From Hydrogenophaga sp. (lineage in GTDB: Bacteria > Pseudomonadota > Gammaproteobacteria > Burkholderiales > Burkholderiaceae_C): a DNA stretch of 64,000 nucleotides. The notes under the pieces are model-generated. The model did no database searches and had not been told where the DNA came from. It saw nothing but the letters and a program-made list of their open reading frames with translations. The stretch covers positions 186,001-250,000 of the forward strand of contig NZ_JAUSCF010000006.1 of assembly GCF_030651625.1 (NCBI RefSeq), read 5' to 3'. Of this stretch, positions 26,755 through 61,207 are shown piece by piece. A program made the position numbers and the translations under genes. Numbering within the stretch: the stretch's first letter is position 1; every line of letters starts with the position of its first letter.

Positions 26755-26848
26755 AGCCCAAGGGGCACCGCCGGGCCGGCTTTGCCGGACGGCCAGTGCT
26801 GCACCCTTGAGGGTGTGGCGCGAAGTGGCGCGAAGTGGCTCGGGGGTG
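26755..26848 (-). repeat. Interspersed modular repeat, copy after leuB
   Basis: Read on the - strand it starts 2 nt after the leuB TGA with CACCCCCGAGCC, then a duplicated CACTTCGCGC, a small CACCCTCAAGGGTG hairpin, and the CCGGCAAAGCCGG hairpin. The order and orientation match the other copies listed (27955, 38858, 47653, 48797, 56080, 60874). Confidence 0.75.
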
Positions 26849-26850
26849 TT

Positions 26851-27921
26851 TCAATTCAGCGCTTTGACCACCGCGTCGCCCATCTGGGAAGTGCCCACCT
26901 TGGTGGTGCCTTCACTGTGAATGTCTGGTGTGCGCAGCCCCAGGGCAAGCACTTTTTGCACGGCGGCTTCAATGCGTTGGGCTGCGGCTTCCTGGTTCAG
27001 ACTGAAGCGCAGCATCATGGCTGCGCTCAGGATGGTGGCCAAAGGGTTGGCAATGCCTTTGCCCGCGATATCAGGTGCACTGCCGTGGCTGGGTTCGTAG
27101 AGCCCCTGGTTGTTCGCGTTCAAGCTGGCGGAAGGCAACATGCCGATGGAGCCTGTCAGCATCGACGCTTCGTCTGACAGGATGTCGCCGAACATGTTGC
27201 CGGTGACCACCACGTCGAACGCCTTGGGCGCCTTGACCAGCTGCATCGCGGCGTTGTCCACGTACATGTGCTCAAGCGCCACGTCCGGGTATTCCTTGTG
27301 CACGTCGGTCACCACGTCTTTCCAGAGCTGGAAGGTTTCCAGTACGTTGGCCTTGTCCACGCTGGTGACTTTTTTGCTGCGCTTGCGGGCGGCCTCAAAG
27401 GCCACGCGGGCGATGCGTTCGATCTCGGGGCGGCTGTAGCGCATGGTGTCGAAGGCTTCTTCGGCACCTGGGAAGTGGCCATCGATGGCCACACGACGGC
27501 CACGCGGCTGGCCGAAATAGATGTCGCCCGTGAGTTCGCGGATGATGAGGATGTCGAGGCCGGAAATCAGTTCGGGCTTGAGGCTGGATGCCCCCACCAG
27601 CTGTTCGTAGCAGATCGCCGGGCGGAAATTGGCAAACAGACCCATGTGCTTGCGCAGGCCCAGGATGGCCTGCTCGGGGCGCAGCGGGCGGTCCAGCTTG
27701 TCGTATTTCCAGTCGCCCACCGCACCGAACAGGATGGCATCGGCCGACCTCGCGAGATCCAGGGTGGCGTCGGGCAGTGGATGACCGTGTGCCTCATAGG
27801 CGGCGCCACCCACGAGCGCGGACTCCATCTCGAAGGGCAGATCGAGCGCGTTGAGGACCTTGACAGCTTCGGCGACGATTTCGATGCCGATGCCGTCACC
27901 GGGGAGAACTGCGATTTTCAT
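26851..27921 (-). CDS. leuB: 3-isopropylmalate dehydrogenase
   Basis: Oxidative decarboxylation of 3-isopropylmalate in leucine synthesis. [16 protein letters not shown] opens the protein. [17 protein letters not shown], the NAD site [16 protein letters not shown] and [19 protein letters not shown] are typical. I used ATG 27921, giving 356 residues. A longer frame reads through the repeat element upstream and is not protein-like before the Met. Together with leuC and leuD it forms one - strand operon. Confidence 0.98.
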
Positions 27922-27954
27922 GGTGGTTTGGTGGAGATGAAGGGGTTCTTGTCG

Positions 27955-28033
27955 AGGTTGCCGTGGGACTGGCTTTGCCGGGTCACTGGCAACGCCCCCT
28001 TGAGGGGGAGACGCCGCAAGCGGCGCGGGGGTG
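27955..28033 (-). repeat. Interspersed modular repeat, copy after leuD
   Basis: On the - strand it starts directly after the leuD TAA with CACCCCCGCGCCGC, followed by a TTGCGGCG hairpin half, CCCCCTCAAGGGGG, and ACCCGGCAAAGCCAG. It fills nearly all of the 112-bp leuD-leuB gap, so it is transcribed within the leu operon. Confidence 0.8.
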
Positions 28034-28678
28034 TTACATGGTTTTGGCGAGCCAGGGCTTGGTGGCCAGACGCTCTTTTTCGAACGTGGCAATCTTGTCC
28101 TTGTGGCGCAAGGTCAAGCCGATGTCGTCCAGTCCGTTGAGCAGGCAGTATTTGCGGAAGGCCTGAACGTCGAACGGAATCTCTTCACCCTGTGTCTTGA
28201 CGATCACCTGGCGTTCCAGGTCGATGGTGAGTTGGTAACCAGGGAAGGCTGCCACCTCGTTGAACAGTTGGTCGACGGTGGCTTCGGGCAACTGGATTGG
28301 CAACAACCCGTTCTTGAAGCAGTTGTTGAAGAAGATGTCGGCGAAGCTGGGGGCGATTACGGCACGAAAGCCGTACTGGTCGATGGCCCAGGGCGCGTGT
28401 TCGCGGCTGGAGCCGCAACCGAAATTGCGGCGGGCCAGCAGAATGGAGGCGCCCTTGTAGCGCGGAAGGTTCAGCACGAAGTCGGGGTTGGGCTTGCGGC
28501 TGGCGGGATCCTGGCCGGGCTCGCCCTTGTCGAGGTAGCGCCATTCGTCGAACAGGTTGGGCCCGAAGCCGGTCTTGTGGATCGACTTGAGGAACTGCTT
28601 GGGGATGATGGCGTCGGTGTCGACGTTCTCGCGGTCCATGGGGGCCACAAGGCCTTGGTGAATGGTGAACTTTTGCAT
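28034..28678 (-). CDS. leuD: 3-isopropylmalate dehydratase, small subunit
   Basis: 214-residue swivel subunit of isopropylmalate isomerase, which pairs with LeuC. The signature [13 protein letters not shown] is present, with [12 protein letters not shown] near the N-terminus and [18 protein letters not shown] in the core. The stop TAA at 28036-28034 is followed at once by a repeat unit. Between it and leuC lies a small lipoprotein gene. Confidence 0.98.
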
Positions 28679-28691
28679 GATGTGAGGGGAG

Positions 28692-29018
28692 TTATTTGGT
28701 CACTTCTTCAATCTTCTCGCCAGCCCGCTCGAGCCCGCGCCCTGTGGCTTCACCGGCTCGCTCCAGGCCACGCCCGGTGGCATCTGCAGCCCGTCCGACA
28801 CCTCGCTCGGTAGCGCCCACGGCGCGCTCGATGCCACGGCCCGTGGCGCCCACGGCGCGGTCAACCCCGCGTCCGGTGGCCTCTGCGGCGCGCTCAATAC
28901 CGCGACCAGCTGCCTGACCGGCTTGGCTGGCGCCCTGCTCGACCCTGGACAGCGGTTGGCAAGCTGACAGCGAAATGAGCACGGGTACAACGGTGCAGAT
29001 GAGGGCAAGGTGCTTCAT
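28692..29018 (-). CDS. Entericidin-like lipoprotein with six 11-residue repeats
   Basis: 108-residue predicted lipoprotein between leuC and leuD. The signal peptide ends in the lipobox LSAC (Cys20). Residues 36-101 are six tandem 11-mers of the form [11 protein letters not shown], with G, R and A invariant or nearly so. The tail GEKIEEVTK resembles the end of entericidin A/B-type lipoproteins, which are often encoded at this place in relatives but are only about 45 residues long. The repeats predict a long amphipathic helix. ATG 29018 was chosen because it starts the signal peptide. Family membership is an inference. Confidence 0.75.
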
Positions 29019-29066
29019 GAGAGCCTCCAGCGACGGCAATGAATTTTTGAAGGGACAAAGCCGAAA

Positions 29067-30488
29067 TCAGGCGATGGTGCGGATGTCGATGAAATGACCG
29101 GTGACTGCGGCGGCCGCAGCCATGGCAGGCGACACCAGATGGGTGCGGCCGCCCGCACCTTGACGGCCTTCAAAGTTGCGGTTGCTGGTGGAAGCGCAGC
29201 GCTCCCCCGGCTCCAGCCGGTCGGCGTTCATGGCCAGGCACATGGAACAACCGGGTTCACGCCATTCGAAGCCGGCGGCCTTGAAGATTTCGTGAAGGCC
29301 CTCGCGTTCGGCCTGTTCCTTGACCAGTCCGGAGCCGGGCACGACCATCGCCAGTTTGATGTTCTTGGCCACCTTCTGCCCGAGCTTCTTGACCACCGCA
29401 GCGGCTTCGCGCATGTCTTCGATGCGGCTGTTGGTGCACGATCCGATGAAAACTTTGTCAACGAAGATGTCGGTCAGCGGTTTACCGGGTTCAAGTGCCA
29501 TGTAGCTCAATGCGCGCTCGATCGCTCCGCGTTTGTTGGCGTCCTTTTCCTTGTCGGGGTCGGGCACCTGGCCATCCACGCCGAGCACCATTTCAGGCGA
29601 GGTACCCCAGGTGATTTGCGGCACGATCTGGCTGGCGTCCAGTTCGACCACGGCATCGAACTTTGCATCCGGATCAGAGAACAGTGTTTTCCAGTAGACC
29701 ACGGCCTGGTCCCATTCCATGCCCGTGGGCGAGAGCGGACGACCACGCACGTATTCAATGGTTTTTTCGTCCACGGCCACCAGGCCGGCGCGGGCGCCTC
29801 CCTCGATGGCCATGTTGCAGACCGTCATACGGCCCTCCACGCTGAGTGAGCGGATGGCACTGCCACCGAATTCGATGGTGTAGCCTGTGCCGCCGGCCGT
29901 ACCGATCTTGCCGATGATGGCCAGCACGATGTCTTTGGCGGTGACCCCCTTGACCAGTTGGCCCTCCACCTTGACCAGCATGTTCTTGGCCTTTTTGGCC
30001 AGCAAGGTCTGGGTCGCCATGACGTGTTCGACTTCGCTGGTGCCGATGCCGTGGGCCAGCGCGCCGAAGGCGCCGTGTGTGGAAGTGTGCGAGTCGCCGC
30101 AGACCACCGTCATACCTGGCAGCGTGGCGCCGTTTTCCGGGCCGATCACATGCACGATGCCTTGCCGTTTGGACATGAAAGGGAAGAAAGCCGCCGCACC
30201 GTATTGTGCGATGTTGCTGTCCAGCGTGGTGATCTGCTCCTTGCTGATCGGATCGGTGATGCCGTCGTAGCCGAGCTCCCAGCCGGTGGTGGGGGTGTTG
30301 TGGTCGGCGGTGGCCACCACCGAACTCACGCGCCACATTTTGCGCCCTGCCTGACGCAGGCCTTCGAAGGCCTGTGGGCTGGTGACTTCGTGCACCAGAT
30401 GGCGGTCGATGTAGAGGACGGAGGTGCCGTCTTCTTCGGTGTGGACGACGTGTTCGTCCCAGATTTTGTCGTAGAGCGTGCGTGGCAT
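29067..30488 (-). CDS. leuC: 3-isopropylmalate dehydratase, large subunit
   Basis: 473-residue catalytic subunit of isopropylmalate isomerase, an aconitase-family iron-sulfur enzyme. Substrate and cluster motifs are present: [28 protein letters not shown] and [11 protein letters not shown] (the three cluster Cys). [12 protein letters not shown] is near the end. The start is 29 nt after the lysR stop, so lysR may share the transcript. Confidence 0.98.
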
Positions 30489-30517
30489 GGATCGGTATTC
30501 CTTCTGTTGGGGCGATT

Positions 30518-31468
30518 TTATGTGGGGGTGTTGGAAACAGGTGTGGTGTGGGAGCTCTGTGCCAGGTGGTTCACCAGCAGGCGGGCCGACGCTGGCAGCG
30601 TGGCAAAGTCGCGTGCCACGAGGTCGATCTGGCGGGTGGCCCAGTCATCGGTCAGCGCCACGCAGGTGAGGTCCCCCACACCGTGCATCAGCTCGAATGC
30701 CCTTTGCGGCATGAGACCAACGCCCAGGCCGTTGTGGATCATGCGACACATCGCGTCAAGGCCGGTCACGCGGATGCGCAGCCGGATGCTGCGGCCGGCG
30801 GTAGCGGCTGCCGCGTGCATTGCCAGATAGATGGAGCTGTTGGCATGCAGACCCACATGGTCCCACGCCAGGCTGTCGGCAAAAACTAGTGATTCGTGTT
30901 GTGCCAAAGGGTGGTGGATTGGCACCACGAGGGTGAGCTGGTCTTGCCGGTACCTGCGGGTCTGCAGGTTGTTCGGCTGGCCGGAAGAACGGGTGTGACA
31001 GATGCCCAGATCGGCCGCGCCTTCGTGCACGGCCCGAATCACTTCGGTGGACAGGTGTTCTTCCAGGTCGATCTTGATGCCTTCGTGGCGAGCGATGAAG
31101 GTGCCCAGATCCTCAGGCAGAAACTGCACGATGGCCGAGATGTTGGCGTGCACCCGCACGTGGCCACGCACCCCGTCGGCGTATTCAGAGAGTTCGCCCT
31201 GCATCTTGTCGAGGCTGAACAGGACCGACCGTGCATGGTGCAGCAGGCTCTGGCCTGCCGGAGTGGGGGTGGCTCCTCGGGCGTGGCGGTCGAGCAGCCT
31301 GCTGCCCACGGTGCTTTCCAGGTCAGACAACCGCTTGCTGACCGCCGATGTGGCCATGAACGCCAGCTCCGCTGCCTTGCCGATGCTGCCGCGCTCGCAC
31401 ACCGCCACATAGAGCTGGAGTGAGGTGAGGTCGATGCGGCGAACGAAGCTGCGGTCCGGGAAATTCAT
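30518..31468 (-). CDS. LysR-family transcriptional regulator
   Basis: 316-residue regulator with an N-terminal winged helix-turn-helix ([38 protein letters not shown]). A periplasmic-binding-like effector domain follows from about residue 95. It lies immediately upstream of leuC on the same strand rather than divergent from its likely target, which is less usual for LysR genes. The effector and regulon cannot be read from the sequence; control of the leu genes is a guess from position. Confidence 0.9.
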
Positions 31469-31557
31469 GCGTTAGCCATCGCGAATGACGATGAATTGGT
31501 GATTTTCCTCTCTTTTGTGCGGTCGTGCCATCGTATTTGGCGATGAGAGGCGCCGCC

Positions 31558-31597
31558 AAAAAGAAAACCCGCATGGCTTGCGCCAGGCGGGTTTTTT
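31558..31597 (-). terminator. Rho-independent terminator of gltA
   Basis: CCCGC-x-TGGC (31568-31577) pairs with GCCA-x-GCGGG (31582-31591) around a 4-nt loop. On the - strand the stem is followed by TTTTCTTTTT (31567-31558), and T's also flank it on the other side. It lies 37 nt after the gltA stop and separates gltA from lysR. Confidence 0.85.
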
Positions 31598-31627
31598 CTG
31601 CCGGACAGGGTCCGGGGCGGAATGGAC

Positions 31628-32932
<1,305 letters not shown>

Positions 32933-32945
32933 GCGAAATCCTTTT

Positions 32946-33245
32946 CTAGGCGTCTGAGACGGATGGCCGGGCAGTGCGAAGCATGCCCAGTACGTTCGTG
33001 ATGTCATCACGGGCGAGGTCGCCCTCGGGACTTTTGCGGGCCAGCAACAGATCAAGCAGATCGTTGTCTGAGAGGTCCATTAGAACTCCCAGAGCTTGAG
33101 CCTGCCTGACGGTCAAGTCACTTGCGTGCTTGGCAAAGAAGCGTTCAATGAAGAGATCGTTTTCGAGCAGTCCCCGCCGGCATCGCCACCTGAGCTTGCT
33201 CCAGGCACGCTCATCAAGCAGTTCGTCTGTGGGGGTGGCGTTCAT
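32946..33245 (-). CDS. sdhE: FAD assembly factor SdhE
   Basis: 99-residue small helical protein that helps attach FAD covalently to SdhA. The signature [18 protein letters not shown] (the RGxxE motif) is clear. The rest of the chain ([13 protein letters not shown]) also fits the family. It sits between sdhB and gltA in the succinate dehydrogenase operon. The gap to gltA is 13 nt. Confidence 0.94.
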
Positions 33246-33267
33246 GTGGATACAGGAGGGAAACCGC

Positions 33268-33972
33268 TCAGACCGAACGCATCACCATCATTTCCTTGAT
33301 CTTGCCGATGGCCTTGGTCGGGTTCAGATTTTTGGGGCAGACGTCGACACAGTTCATGATGGTGTGGCAGCGGAACAGGCGGTACGGATCTTCCAGGTTG
33401 TCAAGCCGTTCTGCGGTTCCTTCGTCGCGGCTGTCGGCGATGAAGCGATAGGCCTGCAACAGGCCGGCAGGGCCGACAAACTTGTCAGGATTCCACCAGA
33501 AGCTGGGGCAACTGGTGGAGCAGCTGGCGCAGAGAATGCATTCGTACAGGCCATTGAGCTCGTCCCGCTCTTCGGGGCTCTGCAGGCGTTCCTTCTCTGG
33601 GGCCACGCTATCGTTGATCAGGTAGGGCTTGATGCTGTTGTACTGCTTGAAGAACAGCGTCATGTCCACGATCAGGTCGCGCACCACAGGCAGACCGGGC
33701 AGGGGTTTGAGGGTGATCACGCCGGGCAGCGTGTTCATGTTGGTCAGGCAGGCCAGGCCGTTCTTGCCATTGATGTTCATTGCGTCCGAACCGCACACGC
33801 CTTCGCGGCAGGAGCGGCGGAACGAGATGGACGGGTCCACTGCCTTGAGCTTCATCAGCGCATCAAGCAGCATGCGCTCGTGTCCGTCGAGTTCAACTTC
33901 GATGGACTGCATGTAAGGCTTGGCATCCTTTTCGGGGTCGTAGCGGTAGATCTTGAATGTGCGTTTGGCCAT
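33268..33972 (-). CDS. sdhB: Succinate dehydrogenase iron-sulfur subunit
   Basis: 234-residue electron-transfer subunit of complex II. The 2Fe-2S site is SCREGVCGSDAMNINGKNG followed by LAC. The 4Fe-4S site is CILCASCSTSCPS, and the 3Fe-4S site is CHTIMNCVDVCP. It passes electrons from SdhA to quinone at the membrane anchor. It lies 40 nt after sdhA. Confidence 0.98.
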   Translation of the reverse strand: MAKRTFKIYRYDPEKDAKPYMQSIEVELDGHERMLLDALMKLKAVDPSISFRRSCREGVCGSDAMNINGKNGLACLTNMNTLPGVITLKPLPGLPVVRDLIVDMTLFFKQYNSIKPYLINDSVAPEKERLQSPEERDELNGLYECILCASCSTSCPSFWWNPDKFVGPAGLLQAYRFIADSRDEGTAERLDNLEDPYRLFRCHTIMNCVDVCPKNLNPTKAIGKIKEMMVMRSV

Positions 33973-34012
33973 GGTGTTTTCTCTGTGCGTCTTGGGAGCG
34001 AAGCGTCGGGCT

Positions 34013-35818: not shown

Positions 35819-35822
35819 GACT

Positions 35823-36188: not shown

Positions 36189-36219
36189 TTGGGGTAATCC
36201 AGTGGGTATCAGGGCGGAC

Positions 36220-36651: not shown

Positions 36652-36694
36652 GGTGGGGCTTTCTTCCGGTGTGGATTGAAATTTGGAAGGCTTC

Positions 36695-37648: not shown

Positions 37649-37702
37649 GCTTTGGTGGCTTTCAGGCCTGCTGTCAGTGAGCAGTCAGTGAGCACAATCA
37701 TA

Positions 37703-37722
37703 TCTTATATAAGACATAAGAC
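37703..37722. promoter_or_regulatory. Palindromic operator between gntR and mdh
   Basis: TCTTATATAAGA (37703-37714) is a perfect 12-bp palindrome. It overlaps a direct repeat of ATAAGAC (37709-37715 and 37716-37722). It ends 4 bp before the -35 box of the mdh promoter. GntR-family proteins bind short TA-centred palindromes, so autoregulation and mdh control are likely. The same 12-mer recurs at 60459-60470. Confidence 0.6.
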
Positions 37723-37725
37723 AAA

Positions 37726-37755
37726 TTGACGTATCAGGGTTTGCGAGGGTACACT
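37726..37755 (+). promoter_or_regulatory. Candidate mdh promoter
   Basis: TTGACG (37726-37731) and TACACT (37750-37755) are 18 bp apart. Transcription would start near 37762, about 109 nt before the mdh ATG. The palindrome just upstream places a bound regulator against the -35 box. Confidence 0.5.
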
Positions 37756-37870
37756 TGAAAGCTGTCTCGCAAGCCAAAAATATCGGATTTGTGTCCGGGT
37801 TTGGGGTCGAGGTCTGGACACATTCGATTCGAATTTCACTTTCCTTCCGTCAATTTCTGGAGTTCTCAAC

Positions 37871-38857: not shown

Positions 38858-38935
38858 CCCCCCGCGCCGCTTCGCGTCGCCCCCCTGAAAGGGGGGCCAC
38901 ACCTACGGTCTGGCAAAGCCAGTTCCCTGGTGTGT
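38858..38935 (+). repeat. Interspersed modular repeat, copy after mdh
   Basis: It starts at the base after the mdh TGA: CCCCCCGCGCCGCTTCGCG, then CCCCCCTGAAAGGGGGG as a 6-bp hairpin, then GGTCTGGCAAAGCCAG. Same order and orientation relative to the preceding gene as the other copies. It occupies most of the gap to the CitE-like gene. Confidence 0.85.
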
Positions 38936-38987
38936 GCTGGAAGCATGCGGCGCGCGTTGGCATCCGTAACCACCTCGTAACTCACCA

Positions 38988-47652: not shown

Positions 47653-47745
47653 CACCCCCGCAGCGCTTCGCGCCACCCCCTCAGGTAGGCGGCACTGGCC
47701 GTCCGGCAAAGCCGGCCCGGCGGTGCCCTTGTTCGAAGCACCCTT
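47653..47745 (+). repeat. Interspersed modular repeat, copy after the protease gene
   Basis: It begins 11 nt after the stop codon with CACCCCCGCAGCGCTTCGCG. Then come ACCCCCTCAGGTAGG (this box is degenerate) and GTCCGGCAAAGCCGGCCC. Same strand as the preceding gene. It lies in the 146-bp gap before moxR. Confidence 0.8.
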
Positions 47746-48796: not shown

Positions 48797-49035
48797 CACC
48801 CCCTGCGCCGCTTCGCGTCATCCCCCTCTCTCGCCTTTGGCGGGAGGGGGACGCACCCTGTGGCCCGGCAAAGCCGGTTCCACGGGAGCCCTGGTCTCGG
48901 GACACGCGCTCCGGAAAGGTGGTGCCACTGTCTGCGCCGCTTCGCGTCTTCCCCCTCGCTCGCCTTTGGCGGGAGGGGGACGCACCCTGTGGCCCGGCAA
49001 AGCCGGTTCCACGCGAGCCCTGGAAGGGGCGCTTC
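48797..49035 (+). repeat. Two tandem units of the interspersed repeat
   Basis: Two units with a 129-bp period (TGCGCCGCTTCGCGTC at 48804 and 48933). Each has the C-rich box, a CGCCTTTGGCG hairpin inside a long CCCCCT...AGGGGG stem, and TGGCCCGGCAAAGCCGG. The first starts 7 nt after the moxR stop. The array fills the space between moxR and the DUF58 gene. Nothing else is visible in the 301 bp. Confidence 0.9.
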
Positions 49036-52528: not shown

Positions 52529-52565
52529 AACATCTTTCGCCTTTTCCCACCCAAAAGAGACAACC

Positions 52566-53570: not shown

Positions 53571-53696
53571 ACGGGCCTTTGTTGCCGCTTGCACGCCCGT
53601 CGGTTCTGGAATGTCCTTCTGTTCCGGTGGTCGAAGGGTGGCGGTTCGCTGGGGCCCCATTGCATGGGCTCCCGCTCCAACTCACAAAAGGCACCC

Positions 53697-53855: not shown

Positions 53856-53898
53856 CCTACCGTCGCACCGGTGCGCGCCCGACGGCTTCGCGTCCGGT

Positions 53899-54759
53899 TC
53901 AGAGATCGGTGCGCAAGCGCCAGATTTCCGGAAACAGCACCACATCTAGCATCTTGCGCAGGTAGCTCACGCCACCCGTGCCGCCGGTACCTCGCTTGAA
54001 GCCGATCACGCGTTCCACCGTGGTCACGTGGCGGAAGCGCCAGAGGCGGAATGCGTCCTCCAGGTCGGTGAGTTCTTCGCCCAGTTGGTAGAGGTCCCAA
54101 TGGTCCTTGGGGTTCCGATAGACCGCTAGCCAGGCCTGCTCCACTGCGTCGCTGGCCTCATACGGTTTCGTCCAGTCGCGCAGCGTATGGCTCTCTGGCA
54201 CGTCCAGCCCACGGCGTGCCAGCAGGCGCAAGGCTTCGTCGTAGAGGGAGGGCGCTTCATATGAGGCCTGCACAACGGCCAGCCGCTCCGGGCTGTGGGC
54301 ATGGGGCTTGAGCATGGCGGCATTCTTGTTGCCCATGGCGAATTCGATGCAGCGGTACTGGTGGCTCTGGAAGCCGCTGGACTGCGCAAGGTAGGGGCGC
54401 AACGCGCTGTATTCGGGCGGTGTCATGGTGGCGAGCACGTCCCAGGCGTGCACCAGCTGCTCCATGATCTTGGAGACGCGCGCCAGCATCTTGAACGCGG
54501 GCTGCAGTTCGTCCGAAGCGATGTGTGCGATGGCGGCTTTGAGTTCGTGCAGCATGAGCTTCATCCAGAGTTCGCTGGTCTGGTGCTGGATGATGAACAG
54601 CATCTCGTCGTGCGCGGGGGAGAGCGGTTTTTGTGCACCCAGGATGGCGTCGAGCTGCAGGTAGTCGCCGTAGCTCATGTCGCGGCTGAAGTCGAGCTGT
54701 GCGCCTTCTTCGCGCACGATGTCTTCGGGCTTGTTGGGGGCGGGCTGGTGAGGGCACAT
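53899..54759 (-). CDS. kynA: Tryptophan 2,3-dioxygenase
   Basis: 286-residue heme enzyme, first step of the kynurenine pathway (tryptophan to N-formylkynurenine). [35 protein letters not shown] and [17 protein letters not shown] are characteristic. [19 protein letters not shown] holds the heme-ligand His, with [11 protein letters not shown] at the substrate loop. ATG 54759 is 2 nt after the kynU stop. It is the last gene of kynB-kynU-kynA. Confidence 0.97.
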
Positions 54760-54761
54760 GA

Positions 54762-56036
54762 TCAAGTCACCGCATGTTTGGTGTTGAATTCCGGGCGCTG
54801 CCACTCGCCGCTTTCAAGCACCTGGCACAGGTGTTCCACAGCATTCCACACGTCTTCGAAGCCGATGTAAAGCGGCGTGAAGCCGAATCGCAGGATGTCC
54901 TTGTGACGACCGCCGTCGCCGGCACGGTAGTCGCCAATCACGCCGCGTGCGATGAGGGCTTGCACGATGGCGTAGGCGCCTTCTTCCCTGGTCAAGCACA
55001 CCTGAGACCCGCGTTGCGCGTGGTCGCGTGGCGTAGCCAGTCCAAGGCCTCGTGCTTCGCAGCGCTCTTCGACCAATGAGATGAACAGGTCGGTCAGTGC
55101 AAGCGATTTGGTGCGCAGCGCAGCCATGCCACCGTGAATTTCGGCCGCCAGCAGCGTGTCCACGCCGCAGTCCAGCGCGGCCAGGCTGATGATGGGTTGC
55201 GTGCCGCACTGGTAGCGCGTGATGCCCGGGGCGGGGCGGTAGTCGGGTGTGAATTCAAAGGGTGTGGCGTGGCCCCACCAACCGGCCAGGGGTTGCCAGA
55301 AGCGGTCGGTGTGCAGCGGGTTCACCCACACGAAAGCGGGTGCGCCCGGGCCGCCGTTGAGGTACTTGTAGCCGCAGCCCACGGCGAAGTCGGCCTTGGC
55401 GGCTGTGAGGTTCACCGGCACGGCGCCCGCGCTGTGCGCCAGGTCCCACACGGTCAGGATGCCTTCGGCGTGGGCAGCGGCGGTCACGGCGGCCATGTCG
55501 TGCATGGCGCCGGTGCGGTAGTTGACATGCGTGAGCATGAGGATGGCCACGTTCGCGGTGAGCGAGGCGGCAATGTCCTCCGGTTCCACCAGCACCAGTT
55601 CCATGCCGTTCTGTTGGCACAGGGCTTCGGCGATGTAGAGGTCGGTCGGGAAGTTGCTGCGCTCGCTCACGATCTGCTTGCGCTGCGGCGCGTCGGCGGC
55701 AGCGATGTTCATGGCTGCGCTCAGCACCTTGAACAGGTTGATCGAGGTGCTGTCGGTGGCCACCACTTCCTTTGCACCGGCGCCAATCAGGCGGGCGATC
55801 TTGTCGCCCACCTGCTGAGGCATACCGAACCAGCCGTTCTTGTTCCAGCTCTGGATCAGGTCGGTGCCCCATTCGCGGGCCACGGTGTCGGCCACACGGG
55901 CCGGCGTGGCGGTGGGCATCACGCCCAGCGAATTGCCGTCAAGGTAGATGGTGCCGGCTGGAATGTTGAAAAGATCGCGCAGGGCGCGCAGCGGGTCCTT
56001 CGCGTCGAGGGCGATGCAGTCTTGGAGGGTGGTCAT
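54762..56036 (-). CDS. kynU: Kynureninase
   Basis: 424-residue PLP enzyme that cleaves kynurenine to anthranilate and alanine. [12 protein letters not shown] opens the fold. Then come [31 protein letters not shown] and the PLP-lysine segment [20 protein letters not shown] 56036 is the conserved start ([16 protein letters not shown]). The upstream gap to kynB holds a repeat unit. Confidence 0.97.
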
Positions 56037-56079
56037 GTCACTGTGGTTACGTTTTAGAACGGGTTCTGCTCTTTCCGGG

Positions 56080-56153
56080 CACACCGCGGAACCGGTTTTG
56101 CCGGGCCGCTGGTGTGGCCCCCTGGGCGGAGGCGCCGAAGGCGCATCGGTGGG
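56080..56153 (-). repeat. Interspersed modular repeat, copy after kynB
   Basis: On the - strand it starts directly after the kynB TGA: CCCACCGATGCGCCTTCGGC (first box diverged), then CCGCCCAGGGGGCC, then GGCCCGGCAAAACCGGTTCC. It fills most of the kynB-kynU gap, so it is inside the operon transcript. Confidence 0.75.
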
Positions 56154-56783
56154 TCACTCCAACTCCCTAAGGACCGCGCGCACCGGGCTGGCATCGGCGG
56201 TGATCAGCTTCAGGGGGAGGGCAATCAGTTCATAGTCGCCTTCGGGCACGTCGTCGAGCAACAGGTTCTCCAGCACGCGCAGACCGCGCTGGCGAATGGT
56301 CTGGTGGCTGTCCAGGGTCTTGCTGTCGGCGGGGTCGATGCTGGCGCTGTCGATGCCGATCAGCTTCACGCCCAGGTCGGCCAGCAGCGCGACGGTCTCT
56401 GGCGCAAAGGCGGGCAGGGCGTGGTCGAACCGGTCTTGCGGCATGTGGTGGTAGACGCGCACCAGCACCCTTTCAGGGAGTCCGTCCATCGCATGTGCCA
56501 GATGAACCGGCAAAACCAGTGGTCCGCAATGGATGGCGTGGATCACGCGACAGTGACCGATGAAGGCGTGTAAATCCACCGCGCCAATGGCCGCACCATT
56601 CGGGTCGTAGTGCAGGGGCGCGTCGGCGTGGGCACCCACGTGCGGCGAGAGTGTGATCGCGCTCACGTTGACCGGGCAGCCGGGGCCGATGCTGGCCACC
56701 CACTGCTGGTTGTATGCGGTGTCTCCCGGAAAAACCGGCGATGTCGCTTGAACGGGGGGTGAGATGTCCCAGATCTTTTTCAT
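56154..56783 (-). CDS. kynB: Kynurenine formamidase
   Basis: 209-residue metal-dependent cyclase-type hydrolase that converts N-formylkynurenine to kynurenine. The metal site is SPHVGAHADAPLHY, a variant of the usual HxGTHxDAPxH with Ala in place of Thr. FPGDTAYNQQW and LIGIDSASIDPADSKTLDSH also fit KynB. It is the first gene of kynBUA. An inverted repeat lies 56 nt upstream. Confidence 0.95.
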   Translation of the reverse strand: MKKIWDISPPVQATSPVFPGDTAYNQQWVASIGPGCPVNVSAITLSPHVGAHADAPLHYDPNGAAIGAVDLHAFIGHCRVIHAIHCGPLVLPVHLAHAMDGLPERVLVRVYHHMPQDRFDHALPAFAPETVALLADLGVKLIGIDSASIDPADSKTLDSHQTIRQRGLRVLENLLLDDVPEGDYELIALPLKLITADASPVRAVLRELE

Positions 56784-56838
56784 GGTGCTTTGAAGGTAGC
56801 ACCAGCAAAAAAACCATGGTGTCGGTATTTTCCAACGG

Positions 56839-56857
56839 CCTGAAAAAATACTTCAGG
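56839..56857. promoter_or_regulatory. Inverted repeat upstream of kynB
   Basis: CCTGAA (56839-56844) and TTCAGG (56852-56857) are perfect inverted copies around an AT-only core of 6 bp plus C. It lies 56 to 74 nt before the kynB start in the 90-bp gap. Lrp-type regulators such as KynR bind sites of this general form, but the match is only in style. Confidence 0.4.
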
Positions 56858-56873
56858 TCTAAACGAATTTCCT

Positions 56874-57791
56874 CTATGCCAGAGGCGGCAGGCGCACCAC
56901 CAGCACTTTCAAGGCCCGGTCGCTGGACACATCGGCAAAAACCCCCGGGTTGGGCAGGCGCTGCAACACCGCCAGCGCGGGCGCTTCTTGGGCAAGCAGG
57001 TCGCGCAGATACTGCTCGGGAATTTCTGGCGCGTTCAGGCAGAGCAGGGCATGGCCGCCGGGGCGAAGCAGGTCGGGCAGGCGGCGGATCAACCGGGCGT
57101 AGTCCTTGGTCGCCACGAAACTGCCCTTCTGATAGCTGGGCGGGTCCATGATCACCAGGCCGTAGGGCCCCATGCGGTTGACTTTGCCCCAGGTGCTGAA
57201 CAGATCGTGCGCGAGGAACTTGGCGCCGCTGAGGATGCCGTTGAGCTGGTGATTCTGCTGACCGGTGGTCAGCGCGGGCTGCGCCATGTCAAGGTTGATC
57301 ACCTCCCTGGCACCACCTTGCAGCGCCGCCACCGAAAACGCACAGGTGTAGGCAAACAGGTTGAGCACCTTGTGGCCCTGCGCGTGCGCACGCACCCAGC
57401 GCCGGCCTTCGGCCATGTCCAGGAAAAGGCCGTGGTTCTGGCCGCGCTGCAGGTTGACTCGGTATTTCGCACCGTCCTCCGTGACCACGTGCGAATCGGG
57501 CACCTTGCCCGCCAGCACCACAGTCTCGCTGCACCCTTCGTGCCGGGTTTGTAGCACGGCATTCAGCGCGTCATAGGGCGCGATCTGTGCATGACGTGCC
57601 TGCAGCGCCGCAGTGAGTACGGCCTGTTCTTCGAGCGTTGCTTCGCCGAACTTGGTGATCAGCCAGACGGGTGGAAAGGCGTCCAGCGTCCAGGCTTCAC
57701 AGCCGGGGTGCAGGCCGCCTCGGCCATGGAAGATGCGCTGGGCATCGGTGGGCATGGCCATGGTGGCGATGGCGTTGAGCAGGGCTTGCAT
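56874..57791 (-). CDS. Class I SAM-dependent methyltransferase, RlmI/RlmK-like
   Basis: 305-residue protein with the layout of 23S rRNA cytosine methyltransferases. AKYRVNLQRGQNHGLFLDMAEGRRWV is the pre-domain. KVLNLFAYTCAFSVAALQGGA is SAM motif I, INLDMAQPAL follows, and VIMDPPSYQKGSF is motif IV (DPPS). The N-terminal PUA domain of RlmI is missing, so RNA target and position are uncertain. It lies 90 nt upstream of kynB and 15 nt after the YkgJ-like gene. Confidence 0.88.
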   Translation of the reverse strand: MQALLNAIATMAMPTDAQRIFHGRGGLHPGCEAWTLDAFPPVWLITKFGEATLEEQAVLTAALQARHAQIAPYDALNAVLQTRHEGCSETVVLAGKVPDSHVVTEDGAKYRVNLQRGQNHGLFLDMAEGRRWVRAHAQGHKVLNLFAYTCAFSVAALQGGAREVINLDMAQPALTTGQQNHQLNGILSGAKFLAHDLFSTWGKVNRMGPYGLVIMDPPSYQKGSFVATKDYARLIRRLPDLLRPGGHALLCLNAPEIPEQYLRDLLAQEAPALAVLQRLPNPGVFADVSSDRALKVLVVRLPPLA

Positions 57792-57806
57792 GAGCTGGAG
57801 GTTTGC

Positions 57807-58115
57807 TCAGTGCGCCAGCGGTGGCAGCCCATGGCGGCGGCGTGCCTGATCGCAGGCATCGCTACCTTCTTCAAACTCGCGGCAGGGGTTCGGCCGCCAC
57901 TCGTAGATGCCACAGGTGGCTTTTTCACCGACATTGCCGCTGAGTGCCGAACAGCGCGGCTTGCCATGGTCGGTGCCGCGCATTCGCGCGATGTGGTCGG
58001 TCACGGGCACCCACAGCCCGTCTGGCACGTTGCCGCCTTCAGACTGGGTTTCGAACACCGAGAAGTCCACCCGGAAGCAAGCGCAGCAGGCACCGCAAGA
58101 CGTACAGCTGCTCAC
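57807..58115 (-). CDS. YkgJ family cysteine-cluster protein
   Basis: 102-residue protein with the CxxCxxCC motif at the start (SSCTSCGACCACFRVDF), and CSALSG, CGIYEWRPNPCREF and SDAC further on, so eight or more Cys able to bind zinc or iron-sulfur. Members are of unknown function. I chose GTG 58115, 8 nt after the argF stop. Longer readings overlap argF. Confidence 0.87.
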   Translation of the reverse strand: MSSCTSCGACCACFRVDFSVFETQSEGGNVPDGLWVPVTDHIARMRGTDHGKPRCSALSGNVGEKATCGIYEWRPNPCREFEEGSDACDQARRRHGLPPLAH

Positions 58116-58123
58116 AATCCGAA

Positions 58124-59071
58124 TCAGCCCAGCTGGCCCAGCAACAGGTACTCCATCAGTGCTTTCTGCGCATGCATGCGGTTCTCGGCCTCGTCCCACA
58201 CCACACTCTGGGGGCCGTCGATGACTTCAGCGCTCACCTCTTCACCGCGGTGCGCGGGCAGGCAGTGCATGAAGATCGCGTCGGGTTTGGCCACGGCCAT
58301 CATGGCTTCGTCCACGCACCATTGTGAGAAGGCGGCACGGCGCACTTCGTTTTCGGCTTCAAAGCCCATGCTGGTCCACACGTCGGTGGTGACCAGATCG
58401 GCGCCCTTGCAGGCTTCTTTCGGGTCCTTGAATACCTTGTAGCAGCCGGCGTTGCTGATACCGGCCAGCCTCGGATCGACCTCGTAGCCGCTGGGCGTGC
58501 TCACGTGCACGGTGAAGCCCAGCAGTTCGGCCGCCTGCAGCCAGGTGTTGGCCATGTTGTTGCCATCGCCCACCCACGCCACGACCTTGCCCTTGAGCGC
58601 ATCCAGCGGGTTGCCACTGGCGGCCGGGCGGTGTTCGACCAAGGTGAACAGGTCGGCCAGGATCTGGCAGGGGTGGAATTCGTTGGTCAGACCATTGATC
58701 ACCGGCACGCGCGAGTGCGCCGCAAATGCCTCGATCTTGCTTTGTTCGTAGGTGCGAATCATCACCATATCAACCATGCGGCTGATGACCTTGGCGCTGT
58801 CTTCAATCGGCTCGGCGCGGCCCAGTTGGCTGTCGCCGGTGGTGAGGTGCACCACCGAGCCGCCCAGTTGGTACATGCCGGCCTCGAAGCTCACGCGGGT
58901 GCGGGTGCTGGCCTTCTCAAAAATCAGGGCCAGCGTCCGGTCGGGGTCGGCGAACGGCTGGTGTTTCTCGAACGCCTTGAACTTGGCCTTGATGAAGGCC
59001 GCGCGCGTGAGCAGGTAGGCGTACTCGTCGGCGTTCAGGTCGTTGAACTGCAGATAATGCTTGAGCTTCAT
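58124..59071 (-). CDS. argF: Ornithine carbamoyltransferase
   Basis: 315-residue enzyme making citrulline from ornithine and carbamoyl phosphate in arginine synthesis. The carbamoyl-phosphate loop STRTR covers residues 55-59. HPCQILADLFTLVEH, WVGDGNNMANTWLQAA and MHCLPAHRGEEVSAEV (the active-site Cys) are present. ATG 59071 is 7 nt after the argD stop, so the two are co-transcribed. Confidence 0.98.
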   Translation of the reverse strand: MKLKHYLQFNDLNADEYAYLLTRAAFIKAKFKAFEKHQPFADPDRTLALIFEKASTRTRVSFEAGMYQLGGSVVHLTTGDSQLGRAEPIEDSAKVISRMVDMVMIRTYEQSKIEAFAAHSRVPVINGLTNEFHPCQILADLFTLVEHRPAASGNPLDALKGKVVAWVGDGNNMANTWLQAAELLGFTVHVSTPSGYEVDPRLAGISNAGCYKVFKDPKEACKGADLVTTDVWTSMGFEAENEVRRAAFSQWCVDEAMMAVAKPDAIFMHCLPAHRGEEVSAEVIDGPQSVVWDEAENRMHAQKALMEYLLLGQLG

Positions 59072-59078
59072 GGCGTGT

Positions 59079-60281
59079 TCATTCTGCGAGGAAGGCGTGG
59101 ATGAGCGGCAGCAGGATGGCAGCAATTTCGTCGGCCTCGGCGGTGGTCAGGATCAGCGGCGGCACGATGCGGATCACGCTGTCGGCGGTCACGCTGATCA
59201 GCAGGCCGGCGTCGGCTGAGCGCTGCGTGAGCACGCCACAGGGCTTGTCCAGTTCCACGCCGATCATCAGCCCCTGGCCGCGAATGTCCTTCACGCCCGG
59301 CTTGCCGGCCAGGCTCGCGTCCAGCAAACCGCGCAGGTGGGCGCCTACCCGCTCGGCGTTGGCCAGCAGGCCGTCTTCTTCCATGATGCGGATGGTTTCC
59401 ACCCCTGCGCGCATGGCCAGGGGATTGCCGCCAAAGGTGGTGCCGTGGTTGCCGGGGGCAAAGATGTTCGCCGCCTTGGGGCCGGCCACCACCGCGCCGA
59501 TGGGCACGCCCGAGCCAAGTCCCTTGGCCAGCGGCATCACGTCGGGCTTGATGCCCGCCCACTGGTGGGCGAACCACTTGCCGGTGCGGCCCATGCCGCA
59601 CTGCACTTCGTCGATCATCAGCAGCCAGTCTTGCGCGTCGCACAGGGCGCGCACGTCTTGCAGGTACTGCGCACGCATGGGGTTCACGCCGCCTTCACCC
59701 TGGATGGTTTCAAAAAACACGGCCACCACGTTGGGATTGCCGGCTGTCGCCTTCTTGAGGGCTTCTATGTCGTTCACCGGTACACGGATGAAACCTTCAA
59801 CCAGCGGGCCGAAGCCCGCCTGGATCTTGGGGTTGCCGGTGGCAGAAAGCGTGGCGATGCTGCGTCCGTGGAAGGCTTTTTCGTACACCACGATCTCCGG
59901 GCGCTCAATGCCTTTGTCGTGCCCGTACTTGCGCGCCAGCTTCAGCGCCGCCTCGTTGGCTTCCAGCCCGGTGCTGCAGAAAAACACGTTGGTCAGGCCG
60001 GAGCGCTCCACCAGCATTTGCGCCAGCCGCTCCTGATCGGGCACGTGGTAATAGTTGCAGCAGTGGATCATCTTGGCCAGCTGGTCCTGCAGTGCGGGCA
60101 CCAGTTTGGGGTGGCCGTGACCCAGCGTGTTGACCGCAATGCCGGCCAGCGCGTCCAGGTATTCCTTGCCGTTCACGTCCCACACGCGGCAGCCTCGCCC
60201 GTGCGACATCGCAATCGGCAGGCGGCCGTAGGTGTTCATCACGTGGGGCGAAGAGGCCAGGACTGTGGCGGCGGCATTCAT
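59079..60281 (-). CDS. argD: Acetylornithine aminotransferase
   Basis: 400-residue class III aminotransferase of arginine synthesis, also able to act in lysine synthesis. GIAVNTLGHGHPKLVPAL, STGLEANEAALKLARKYG, LLMIDEVQCGMGRTG and the PLP-lysine segment MPLAKGLGSGVPIGA are present, with NHGTTFGGNPLA near the active site. A terminator-like hairpin lies 27 nt upstream of its ATG (60308-60339). Confidence 0.97.
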   Translation of the reverse strand: MNAAATVLASSPHVMNTYGRLPIAMSHGRGCRVWDVNGKEYLDALAGIAVNTLGHGHPKLVPALQDQLAKMIHCCNYYHVPDQERLAQMLVERSGLTNVFFCSTGLEANEAALKLARKYGHDKGIERPEIVVYEKAFHGRSIATLSATGNPKIQAGFGPLVEGFIRVPVNDIEALKKATAGNPNVVAVFFETIQGEGGVNPMRAQYLQDVRALCDAQDWLLMIDEVQCGMGRTGKWFAHQWAGIKPDVMPLAKGLGSGVPIGAVVAGPKAANIFAPGNHGTTFGGNPLAMRAGVETIRIMEEDGLLANAERVGAHLRGLLDASLAGKPGVKDIRGQGLMIGVELDKPCGVLTQRSADAGLLISVTADSVIRIVPPLILTTAEADEIAAILLPLIHAFLAE

Positions 60282-60307
60282 GCTTGAGACTCCGAAGGGA
60301 AAGGGCC

Positions 60308-60339
60308 AAAAAGAAAGCGGCTCAACGCAGGTTGAGCCG
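60308..60339 (-). terminator. Terminator-like hairpin in the argD leader
   Basis: CGGCTCAAC (60318-60326) and GTTGAGCCG (60331-60339) form a perfect 9-bp stem with a 4-nt loop. On the - strand it is followed by CTTTCTTTTT (60317-60308). It lies between any argD promoter and the argD start, 27 nt upstream, so it is either an attenuator or the end of a short upstream transcript. Confidence 0.65.
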
Positions 60340-60448
60340 TTGAAAAGTGATTCTAGGCGCAGCGACGGGCATCATCGTTGCTTGTTTTGCATTGCAGTCA
60401 TGCCGCACAACGTGGCTTCAGAGCACCGTACGGTGGGCGGGTTATCCC

Positions 60449-60476
60449 TTAGATCAAGTCTTATATAAGATAGAAT
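60449..60476 (+). promoter_or_regulatory. Promoter candidate with embedded palindrome
   Basis: TTAGAT (60449-60454) and TAGAAT (60471-60476) are 16 bp apart and point toward the DUF3579 gene. The perfect palindrome TCTTATATAAGA (60459-60470) fills the spacer next to the -10 box, where a bound repressor would block polymerase. The identical 12-mer is in the gntR/mdh region at 37703. The -35 match is weak. Confidence 0.45.
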
Positions 60477-60561
60477 ACCTGGCGGCCAACGTGGCGAGCG
60501 ATCCTCGCGCTGGTGCCGGCCATTTCCCCCTTTCTGGGCCCTCCACCCGCAGGCTTCCCCG

Positions 60562-60870
60562 ATGGTTACTCCCTCCGCCAAGCAAGTGTTCATACAGGGC
60601 GTCACCCAGAGTGGTCGCACCTTTCGCCCGAGCGACTGGGCCGAACGGCTGGCGGGCGTGATGAGTTCTTTTCGACCAGGTGGTGCACAGCCGGGCAGCC
60701 ACCTGAGCTATTCCCCCTGGTGCGTGCCCAACACCATCAACGGGGTGAAATGCGTGGTGGTGCACACCGATCTGCGCGACGCAGAGCCCATGGCATGGGA
60801 CTTCGTGATGCACTTCGCCCGCGACAACGACCTGCAGGTGGCCGAGGGGTGTTTGCTCCCGGACAGATAG
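60562..60870 (+). CDS. DUF3579 family protein
   Basis: 102-residue protein: IQGVTQSGRTFRPSDWAERLAGVMSSF and EPMAWDFVMHFARDNDL match the DUF3579 family as I know it in betaproteobacteria, where it neighbours argD/argF and rpsT. The function is unknown. No transmembrane or signal segment is visible. The TAG stop is followed 3 nt later by a tandem repeat array. Confidence 0.85.
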   Translation: MVTPSAKQVFIQGVTQSGRTFRPSDWAERLAGVMSSFRPGGAQPGSHLSYSPWCVPNTINGVKCVVVHTDLRDAEPMAWDFVMHFARDNDLQVAEGCLLPDR

Positions 60871-60873
60871 GTC

Positions 60874-61207
60874 CACCCCCGCCGCGCTGCGCGCGACCCC
60901 CTCAAGGGGGCGATACCAGTGGCCCGGCAAAGCCGGTTCCACGGTATCTCTGGATGGGGCACTTCGCTCCGGAAAAGCTCAGAAGCACCCCCGCGCCGAC
61001 TTCGTCGTCACCCCCTCAAGGGGGCGATACCAGTGGCCCGGCAAAGCCGGTTCCACGGTATCTCTGGATGGGGCACTTCGCTCCGGAAAAGCTCAGAAGC
61101 ACCCCCGCGCCGACTTCGTCGTCACCCCCTCAAAAGGGGGCGATACCAGTGGCCCGGCAAAGCCGGTTCCACGGTATCTCTGGATGGGGCACTTCGCTCT
61201 GGAGGGG
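60874..61207 (+). repeat. Three tandem units of the interspersed repeat
   Basis: Units start at 60874, 60986 and 61100, with periods of 112 and 114 bp. The second and third are almost identical; the third has two extra A's in its CCCCCTCAAAAGGGGG hairpin and ends early. Each has CACCCCCGCGCCGACTTCGT (the first diverged), the C5/G5 hairpin, TGGCCCGGCAAAGCCGG, and a tail with GGATGGGGCACTTCGCTC. The array starts 3 nt after the DUF3579 stop. Confidence 0.95.

Follow-up and report, generated by a model that had tools for sequence, protein, structure and literature searches.

A family of hairpin repeats of about 100 nucleotides in Hydrogenophaga sp., mostly located directly 3′ of stop codons in gene orientation

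Introduction

A preference of bacterial repeats for the 3′ ends of coding sequences was reported by Petrillo et al. (2006; PMC1590033). The REP/BIME sequences of E. coli are described as dispersed intergenic palindromes, many of them near stop codons, with proposed roles in stability, termination or translation, and a rule is cited by which they lie under 16 nt from the stop (PMC12306157). REPs are given a length of 20–40 bp (PMC3733652), and they are described as alternating in orientation within BIMEs and as linked to RAYTs (PMC2817692). YPAL / RU-2 of Yersinia, a 168 bp repeat with internal inverted repeats, lies preferentially near 3′ ends and is thought to affect upstream transcripts; target duplications of 3–26 bp are described for YPAL (PMC2229807, PMC1590033, PMC2267715). 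The Bor repeats of Bordetella are betaproteobacterial stem-loops of 26–30 bp near coding regions (PMC1590033), and the CGTC-tagged REPs, mostly alphaproteobacterial, are short hairpins tagged with CGTC and CCA, with no dedicated transposase (PMC3733652). Other intergenic motif pairs were named in Acidovorax and Polaromonas (PMC5217627).

The element reported here resembles REPs in being dispersed and intergenic, with many copies close behind stop codons (within about 15 nt), and the REP likeness proposed in a sequence-only reading of this DNA was apt. It differs from them in that it is a three-hairpin composite rather than a palindrome of REP length, has one orientation relative to the gene, is anchored more tightly and shows no RAYT link. 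With YPAL it shares the 3′-end preference and the occurrence of both empty and filled sites; it shows no general target duplication, and it is likened to YPAL / RU-2 by description, not by sequence. The Bor repeats, set apart on the same descriptive basis and not by sequence, are shorter, and the CGTC-tagged REPs, whose hairpins are short, share with it the state of a palindromic repeat without a dedicated transposase. ERIC and the NEMIS/Correia elements of Neisseria, of similar length (about 100–155 bp), are MITE-like, with terminal inverted repeats. ERIC is described as cotranscribed with its neighbours, with an orientation-dependent effect on mRNA stability, and the account of ERIC and NEMIS/Correia in the same source describes no tie to stop codons (PMC2229807). 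Among the openly licensed papers listed we found no description of our element family and no match to its 14-base core string. Stop-proximal hairpin repeats are already known, so that the earlier claim of an undescribed stop anchoring holds for the element family and for the tightness of its anchoring, which are new, and not for the 3′-end preference as such.

Results

Copies in the window

The window, the whole stretch of 64,000 nt that was analysed, had been reported to carry the element at seven loci. These hold ten units, tandem at two of the loci (two units at moxR, three at the DUF3579 gene), and an eleventh unit was detected elsewhere (Table 1). The distances between stop codon and element had been read correctly at all seven loci, where the element has the orientation of the preceding gene on both strands, and the stop-anchoring rule fits seven of the eight window loci, the exception being the unit in the rpsT/murJ gap. 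Pfam agreed with the assigned gene names in 10 of 10 cases (Iso_dh, Aconitase_C, Ldh_1, HpcH_HpaI, Trypsin_2, AAA_3/MoxR, DUF58, Cyclase, KYNU_C and DUF3579). No Rfam match was obtained across the window, and a search of positions 60850–61340 returned two matches (E 0.97 and 3.4), both far below their cut-offs. Near 61280–61310, 3′ of the third DUF3579 unit, an inverted repeat resembling a terminator, its 3′ side rich in T, was seen by eye.

Table 1. Units of the repeat in the window.
Unit	Coordinates	Strand	Remarks
Behind leuB	26757..26848	-	Stop + 2 nt; 5′ module degenerate, box 1 partly repeated
Between leuD and leuB	27950..28033	-	Adjoins TAA (0 nt)
Between mdh and CitE-like gene	38858..38945	+	Adjoins TGA (0 nt)
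Behind trypsin-like protease gene	47653..47734	+	Stop + 11 nt
moxR unit 1	48797..48896	+	Stop + 7 nt; hairpin 2 is the long-arm variant
moxR unit 2, tandem	48928..49025	+	92% identity to moxR unit 1
Between kynB and kynU	56071..56153	-	Adjoins TGA (0 nt)
DUF3579-gene unit 1, tandem	60874..60986	+	Stop TAG + 3 nt; first of three, unit spacing 114 nt
DUF3579-gene unit 2, tandem	60987..61100	+	Second of three
DUF3579-gene unit 3, tandem	61101..61219	+	Third of three
Weaker unit (28 bits)	61783..61887	-	Divergent rpsT/murJ gap; no called stop codon before unit

Architecture and pairing

The element is a dispersed non-coding composite of hairpins with a core of ~80 nt, or ~105–115 nt including the 3′ tail; the core model comprises 84 positions and three helices. 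Box 1 (up to 3 mismatches) gave 6 matches against 0.04 in shuffles and box 3 gave 8 against 0.01, and the box-3 pattern with at most one mismatch matched 175 times genome-wide, compared with one match of the reversed control. Compensatory change was strong in the 3′ hairpin; 95.4% of 1168 cells were paired. Changes on both sides of paired positions numbered 131 against 30.9 in shuffled data (no shuffle of 500 reached this number; slid versions gave 10–30), in a test whose structure model was built from the very copies tested. Paralogues would covary in this way under selection on a DNA hairpin as well. At the mdh site an outer pair is A-T in the Hydrogenophaga sp. copy and G-C in genome G020, and an apical pair is T-A in the former and C-G in G059 and G030; in a fixed register the non-standard pairs among 15 were one in the Hydrogenophaga sp. 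copy, three in G059 and one in G030. The minimum free energies of five single units were modestly below those of shuffles (z -1.1 to -3.75).

A fourth hairpin, which CTGGA and TCCGG would form in the 3′ tail, was not supported: all five pairs were present in 27 of 88 copies, compared with 22.4 ± 2.7 (maximum 30) for swapped partners and 15.5 ± 3.5 (maximum 26) for shuffles. Free folding of 63 copies was uninformative as to where pairing begins behind the stop, since G-runs further along pair with the C-run.

Stop codon anchoring and orientation

The profile search proposed by the sequence-only reading, with stop distance and strand compared with random positions, revealed a preference for stops and for gene orientation. 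In a sample of 864 kb (a fifth of the genome) 88 copies were kept, 77 of them lead copies, which would amount to ~435 copies, i.e., a few hundred, in the genome if the sampled density holds. Seventy-two of the 77 leads point the same way as the gene upstream. Of these 72, 64 started at most 20 nt from its stop codon (one of the 64 starts 16 nt inside the called gene), compared with 19.4 ± 3.4 (maximum 32) in 10,000 trials of random placement in the same gaps. Within 15 nt there were still 61 of the 72, and where a gap of at least 200 nt left room elsewhere, 27 of 33 leads stayed within 20 nt of the stop. The exceptions were five leads without a co-oriented gene before them and eight co-oriented ones beyond 20 nt. 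In alignment A2 (41 copies) the element starts at a median of 5 nt from the stop, and hairpin 1 has its first pair at a median of 14 nt. Among gaps of at least 90 nt, an element was present in 17 of the 50 convergent, 50 of the 231 codirectional and 5 of the 94 divergent ones, and each gene of a convergent pair may bear its own copy in its own direction (e.g., C18 306991+/307184-; C30 128131+/128298-). The observation at the seven loci is confirmed and holds well beyond the window; a lack of stop or orientation preference, named beforehand as its refutation, was found neither in this fifth of the genome nor in the samples from relatives.

Carrier genes numbered 66 of the 771 called in the sample. 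Their codon use was more native than that of other genes (p 3e-7 in the own genome, 5e-4 in four relatives). With longer genes that have gaps of at least 60 nt as controls, UGA stops were rarer in carriers both in the own genome (0.64 vs 0.79, p 0.009) and in the four relatives (0.53 vs 0.74, p 0.013). In the genus set (29 loci; 0.72 vs 0.84, p 0.26) and the family set (0.73 vs 0.77) the deficit did not reach significance, and in G339 it was reversed (0.78 vs 0.66). It was strong at 20 mdh loci (1/13 vs 0.73), which are sites common to several genomes. Measured against all genes the deficit is partly confounded by genes that overlap or lie close together, which at gaps below 10 nt end in TGA in 96% of cases; gap-selected controls left it weaker, still present in the own genome and the four relatives. 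Three other sets do not show it.

Distribution and occupancy in relatives

All 67 genomes of the genus Hydrogenophaga matched; copy number is patchy within the family, and outside it the core pattern is at background. Copy counts here are lower bounds (67, 150 and 150 candidates scored), the loci are best or first matches rather than a random sample, and the orientation counts exclude four copies at locus ends and two within gene calls. So counted, copies were co-oriented in 33/34 cases in the genus sample, 24/26 in the family sample and 32/33 in four other genera, and lay within 20 nt of the stop in 29/33, 20/24 and 29/32, respectively. G339 was weaker as counted, with 7 of 19 co-oriented copies within 20 nt measured from the profile start (null 3.9 ± 1.7, maximum 11) and 15 of 19 within 30; the low 20-nt count arises because the aligned part starts inside what appears to be a longer 5′ module. 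Six plasmid records matched, three of them annotated, and the element was 3′ of and along the upstream CDS in 3 of these 3.

Occupancy varies among species, yet copies recur at the same stops (mdh, leuD, gltA). The leuD-leuB site was filled in 3 of 17 scorable relatives and the mdh site in 3 of 20 (G020, G030 and G059), the mdh spacer measuring 15–26 nt if empty and 123–140 nt if filled. Empty and filled orthologous sites were both found, in pairs that are 82–84% identical and so not recent; as G004/G024 and G016/G048 show this identity over aligned DNA, timing of insertion between close strains failed. G048 and G016 have five sites in common, and at only two of these were the orthologues closer to each other than to either copy's best paralogue.

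Mobility and termination

Six of 11 tandem pairs were 90–98% identical. For non-tandem copies in the sample the nearest paralogue reached at most 94% identity (median 84%), and no near-identical dispersed copies were found there. Some of the spread of copies can be put down to tandem duplication in place and to inheritance of shared sites. In 95 copies the mean target-duplication match was 5.02 against 4.91 ± 0.09 permuted, which is no general signal; three copies scored at least 9, compared with 0.5 expected (maximum 2). At mdh of G020 and G059 the stop region is repeated after the element, by eye resembling a target duplication.

A RAYT-type mobiliser, also suggested by the sequence-only reading, received no support. 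The genome has a single gene for a Y1 (PF01797) protein, which scored 55.4 bits with NF047646, below the cut-off of 80, and its 3285-bp locus contains no element. A Y1 match occurred in 7 of 9 genomes lacking an exact box-3 match and in 19 of the 21 that have pattern or model matches; G339 has no Y1 match despite at least 149 model matches among 150 scored.

No T-run was conserved in the 3′ flank of 66 copies, although single copies may have one. Terminator-like sites occurred in 2/17 convergent element-holding gaps vs 21/55 others and in 3/50 vs 49/261 codirectional ones; adding four relatives gave 4/26 (7.8 expected) and 6/81 (9.4 expected). Replacement of terminators by the element was rejected, as the deficit was not significant on length-matched draws (109 and 265 of 2000 as low). 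Intrinsic termination is accordingly not supported. As to Rho, rut sites are not expected to resemble a short C-run before GC hairpins. The element often lies within a probable operon, as in leuD-leuB, kynB-kynU and, in CP099606.1, a pair of TRAP permease genes. Behind gltA of G016, G048, G001, G066 and G021 it was seen by eye to precede an intrinsic terminator.

Discussion

The stop-side, sense placement of the copies suggests a mark that would act at mRNA ends. We tentatively favour, at a little short of an even chance, the reading that the element is kept in sense behind stop codons and may act as RNA, as a putative barrier at mRNA 3′ ends where ORFs end. It would be transcribed together with the upstream gene, and its hairpin stack would start near the point where the last ribosome halts, leaving little free RNA between. 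The hairpins could block 3′-to-5′ exonucleases and shield from endonucleases, and decay blocked in this way would fix the 3′ end to which the upstream cistron is processed and give this cistron a stability of its own within the operon. The tightness of anchoring is not fully explained by such a barrier, because a protective 3′ hairpin need not lie a few nucleotides from the stop. From the 3′-end element first proposed, the strand-oriented sequence that would be transcribed as stacked hairpins is retained; intrinsic termination and a RAYT are not supported.

By analogy with E. coli REPs, the near-stop hairpin may instead stall the ribosome, lower upstream output and call trans-translation. The distances fit the under-16-nt rule (61 of the 72 leads; PMC12306157), as do the A2 medians, and the rarity of UGA in carriers of the own genome and four relatives looks as if termination were specially demanding there. 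We consider this rather unlikely, however, as carriers with native codon use are an odd set to repress and the UGA effect is not significant in genus or family loci and reversed in G339; the 10-nt minimum to hairpin 1 is trivial, because the element brings its own leader. Somewhat less probable still is a selfish element whose insertion is targeted to transcribed 3′ ends, e.g., to R-loops or single-stranded DNA in the wake of the last ribosome, with no host function. The differing occupancy with recurring stops, the empty and filled mdh spacers, the near-identical tandem pairs and the stop region seen by eye to be duplicated at mdh of G020 and G059 speak for it, whereas the lack of a general target duplication, of near-identical dispersed copies and of a linked transposase speaks against it, and the reading frame is invisible to DNA-level targeting. 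That a mobile non-coding element is copied in sense behind translated stops, its insertion itself guided by RNA- or ribosome-level information, seems quite improbable to us.

We give a similarly low probability to a role in transcription termination or in connection with Rho: gaps that hold an element have fewer terminator-like sites, but not significantly so with length matching, no T-run is conserved after the element, and the element is often inside probable operons and, by eye, precedes an intrinsic terminator behind gltA. Chance similarity or an artefact of assembly or gene calling, in favour of which nothing was found, is refuted by the shuffles, the reversed controls, the 67 matching genomes and the public annotations, and its probability is negligible.

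With an estimated few hundred copies in one genome, the family provides a natural series of mRNA 3′ ends across a large bacterial family. As one species may carry a copy at a stop where the next has none, orthologous operons can reveal the effects of stop-proximal hairpins, a comparison that bears on stability, termination and operon balance. Such a comparison would also help to tell whether selection or insertion is the source of stop anchoring in repeats.

Anchoring of the element behind stop codons

The sequence-only reading had placed the element at seven loci in the window. Read base by base, its distances between stop codon and element are correct at 7/7 loci, and its gene names agree with Pfam. 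All seven loci do carry the element, with 10 units in total, two standing in tandem behind moxR and three behind the DUF3579 gene. With at most three mismatches, box 1 has 6 matches in the window and box 3 has 8, against 0.04 and 0.01, respectively, in shuffles. An eleventh, weaker unit, missing from that reading (Table), is an exception to the stop-codon rule; it might follow an uncalled short ORF or be a relic of a rearrangement.

The box-3 pattern matches 175 times in the 4.27-Mb assembly, and its reversed control once. A profile seeded with the 10 window units was iterated over 864 kb of this genome (800 kb as 20-kb stretches, plus the window), where 771 genes were called with a hexamer model. 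There were 93 matches at E < 1, of which the 88 at E < 1e-3 were kept and 5 dropped; scaling by length from 88 in 864 kb, we infer about 435 copies per genome. Two of the 88 copies lie inside called genes, and 80 of the remaining 86 have a co-oriented upstream gene. With tandem arrays counted once, by their first unit, 72 of 77 lead copies are co-oriented with the upstream gene, versus 46.5 ± 3.6 (maximum 60) when position and strand are random in the same gaps. Of these 72, 64 begin no more than 20 nt from the stop codon, counting one whose start falls 16 nt inside the called gene; the same null gives 11.8 ± 3.0 co-oriented copies in that range (maximum 24) and a null with strand kept and position random gives 19.4 ± 3.4 (maximum 32, 10,000 trials). 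In gaps of at least 200 nt, 27 of 33 co-oriented leads lie within 20 nt. The preference for stop-proximal, gene-oriented sites was thus borne out against random placement in this sample. Among gaps of at least 90 nt, the element is held by 17/50 convergent, 50/231 codirectional and 5/94 divergent ones, and in convergent gaps each gene can have its own copy, pointing its own way.

Loci from relatives, searched with the same profile and gene caller, were chosen via best or first matches and are hence a non-random sample; within it, the same orientation and stop proximity recur. In other species of the genus (29 loci, 37 copies), 33 copies are co-oriented, 1 is not and 3 are at locus ends, with 29 of the 33 within 20 nt of the stop. 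In other genera of the family (30 loci, 29 copies), 24 are co-oriented, 2 are not, 2 are inside calls and 1 is at an end; 20 of the 24 lie within 20 nt, three of them at negative distances. Thirty loci of four genera hold 33 copies, 32 co-oriented and 29 of these within 20 nt. Over 400 kb of G339, a genome of another genus, 19/20 copies are co-oriented; from the profile start, 7/19 are within 20 nt (null 3.9 ± 1.7, maximum 11) and 15/19 within 30 nt, and we think that the 20-nt count is weaker because G339 copies have a longer 5′ module that the profile fails to cover. Matches were found in six public plasmid records, each over at most 67% of the query, and in the three that are annotated the element lies behind and along a CDS (Table). 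The phage records searched gave no match.

Coordinates and context of individual features (L, extracted loci; C, contigs of the genome under study; G numbers, genomes of relatives)
Feature	Location	Strand	Remark
Eleventh unit, weaker	window 61783-61887	-	divergent rpsT/murJ gap; no called stop codon before it
Conserved stretch	window 37692-37757		gap upstream of mdh
GTCCTGAGCTTGNCGAAGG	L069:8187-8205 (C30 near 128187)		inside element copy, hairpin-3 tip
GTCCTGAGCTTGNCGAAGG	L350:2139-2157 (G048)		inside element copy, hairpin-3 tip
GTCCTGAGCTTGNCGAAGG	L354:10067-10085 (G016)		inside element copy, hairpin-3 tip
GTCCTGAGCTTGNCGAAGG	L363:648-666 (G339)
Y1 transposase-like gene	L241:1420-2142 (C34 near 30239)		241 aa
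Plasmid copy, Diaphorobacter		sense with CDS	behind protocatechuate dioxygenase gene
Plasmid copy, Comamonadaceae bacterium		sense with CDS	behind TRAP small permease gene, large permease gene next
Plasmid copy, Mitsuaria		sense with CDS	behind ahpF

Structure of the element

The element has C-rich leader bases in its 5′ part, a variable hairpin 1 of the GCGCCGC-TTCG type, a C5-6/G5-6 hairpin 2 with a long extra arm in some copies, and a hairpin 3 of 15 pairs with the tip GGCAAAGCC, 3′ of which stand a well-conserved CTGGAY and a less conserved tail. Pairing was assessed in 51 copies of at least 40 bits and at most 95 nt, with weak and long-arm copies excluded; 95.4% of cells are paired, and 14/23 pairs have both-sided changes. 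Cells with such changes number 131 versus 30.9 in shuffles (0/500 as high), a test inflated by relatedness because the copies are paralogues, and 10–30 in slid controls, over which the structure has an advantage because these copies were used to derive it. Hairpin 3 holds almost the entire signal (11/15 pairs; hairpin 1, 1/3; hairpin 2, 2/5). Orthologous copies at mdh show exchanged pairs in hairpin 3: the outer one is A-T in our genome and G-C in G020, the apical one T-A in our genome and C-G in both G059 and G030. In fixed register, 1, 3 and 1 of 15 pairs are non-standard in our genome, G059 and G030, respectively. One copy each in our genome, in G016 and, judged by coordinates, in G048 has the hairpin-3 tip swapped for another palindrome, GTCCTGAGCTTGNCGAAGG, and parts of the element look exchangeable provided that pairing holds. 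With one exact match each in 4/386 loci, GTCCTGAGCTTGNCGAAGG itself looks like a second repeat family serving as a module.

Distribution and turnover

A covariance model matches in 67/67 genomes of the genus, just once in two of these. In the family, 182/292 good genomes, from 94/126 genera, have between 1 and 164 exact box-3 matches, those with a single one being near background. Elsewhere in the order, 16/194 genomes have 1–3 matches versus 11/194 for the reversed control, and therefore, at the sensitivity of one box-3 pattern, the repeats do not extend beyond this family.

A RAYT-type mobiliser, which had been suggested, was not found in our genome by a Y1 search and inspection of the neighbourhood of the sole Y1 gene. 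The encoded protein matches NCBIfam REP_Tyr_transpos under the cut-off, and no element adjoins the gene; it is perhaps a stable, domesticated transposase relative. By eye, its neighbour looks like a glutamate synthase gene. Y1 presence is unlinked to the repeat in 30 genomes, 26 of which have a Y1 match (19/21 with pattern or model matches, 7/9 without the exact pattern).

Among 20 relatives, occupancy around mdh varies by species, although particular stop codons are filled repeatedly. The mdh stop is filled in our genome and 3/20 relatives (G020, G030, G059), the leuD stop in ours and 3/17 scored (G016, G030, G059), and the gltA (citrate synthase) stop, empty in ours, in 5/19 scored (G016, G048, G001, G066, G021). 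The mdh spacer measures 15–26 nt when empty and 123–140 nt when filled. Of 80 named mdh loci, 75 lack any element (reversed decoy, 0) and five carry one, which in four of them (two Rubrivivax MAGs, a Hydrogenophaga MAG and a further MAG) stands at the mdh stop. Upstream of mdh, the gap holds an intergenic site under strong conservation, a 60-66-base stretch 100% identical in locus L073 and 94% in L072, with 81–87% and 76–85% identity over longer aligned stretches around it.

Among sites with conserved neighbours, G016 and G048 have 5/8 in common and 3 not, and G004 and G024 have 1/2. Identities at the five are 65, 76, 93, 93 and 93%, and only 2/5 beat the best paralogue on both sides; these copies were likely inherited, which is unproven copy by copy. 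In our sample, no dispersed pair exceeds 94% identity, and of 11 tandem pairs six have 90–98% and five 50–83%. Judging by these identities and the differences in occupancy, the copies look old, with gains and losses on the scale of species and with local duplication.

Relation to known repeats and possible function

Stop-proximal repeats as such are already known: in E. coli, RepRanger predicted 4,072 REPs, 446 of them no more than 15 nt from a stop codon, and cites an earlier study in which 260/496 were proposed to act in translational regulation (PMC12306157), and YPAL and other repeats are located near 3′ ends (PMC1590033, PMC2229807). The present family differs from these in its size, composite build, single orientation, tighter anchoring and absence of a RAYT link. 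Rfam 15 gave no match over the window at gathering scores, and no description of the family was found in the parts of the openly licensed literature searched.

Codon use is more native in carrier genes than in controls (other genes >600 nt with gaps of at least 60 nt; p = 3e-7 in our genome, 5e-4 in four relatives). UGA stops are rarer in carriers (0.64 vs 0.79, p = 0.009; in four relatives of the genus, 0.53 vs 0.74, p = 0.013), a difference that is non-significant in 29 genus loci, absent in the wider family and reversed in G339. Terminator-like sites are slightly rarer in element-holding gaps, non-significantly so once length-matched. No conserved T-run was found 3′ of the element, and the evidence as a whole speaks against an intrinsic terminator.

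Being strand-specific, stop-anchored and structured, the element most likely works at the RNA level, where the upstream ORF ends. There it could affect the ribosome during termination, an effect reported for E. coli REPs, or it could be useless to the host, and we regard either as less likely than a barrier to exonucleases. Such a barrier, which would set the 3′ ends of transcripts, is the likeliest single role, one that we put forward tentatively.
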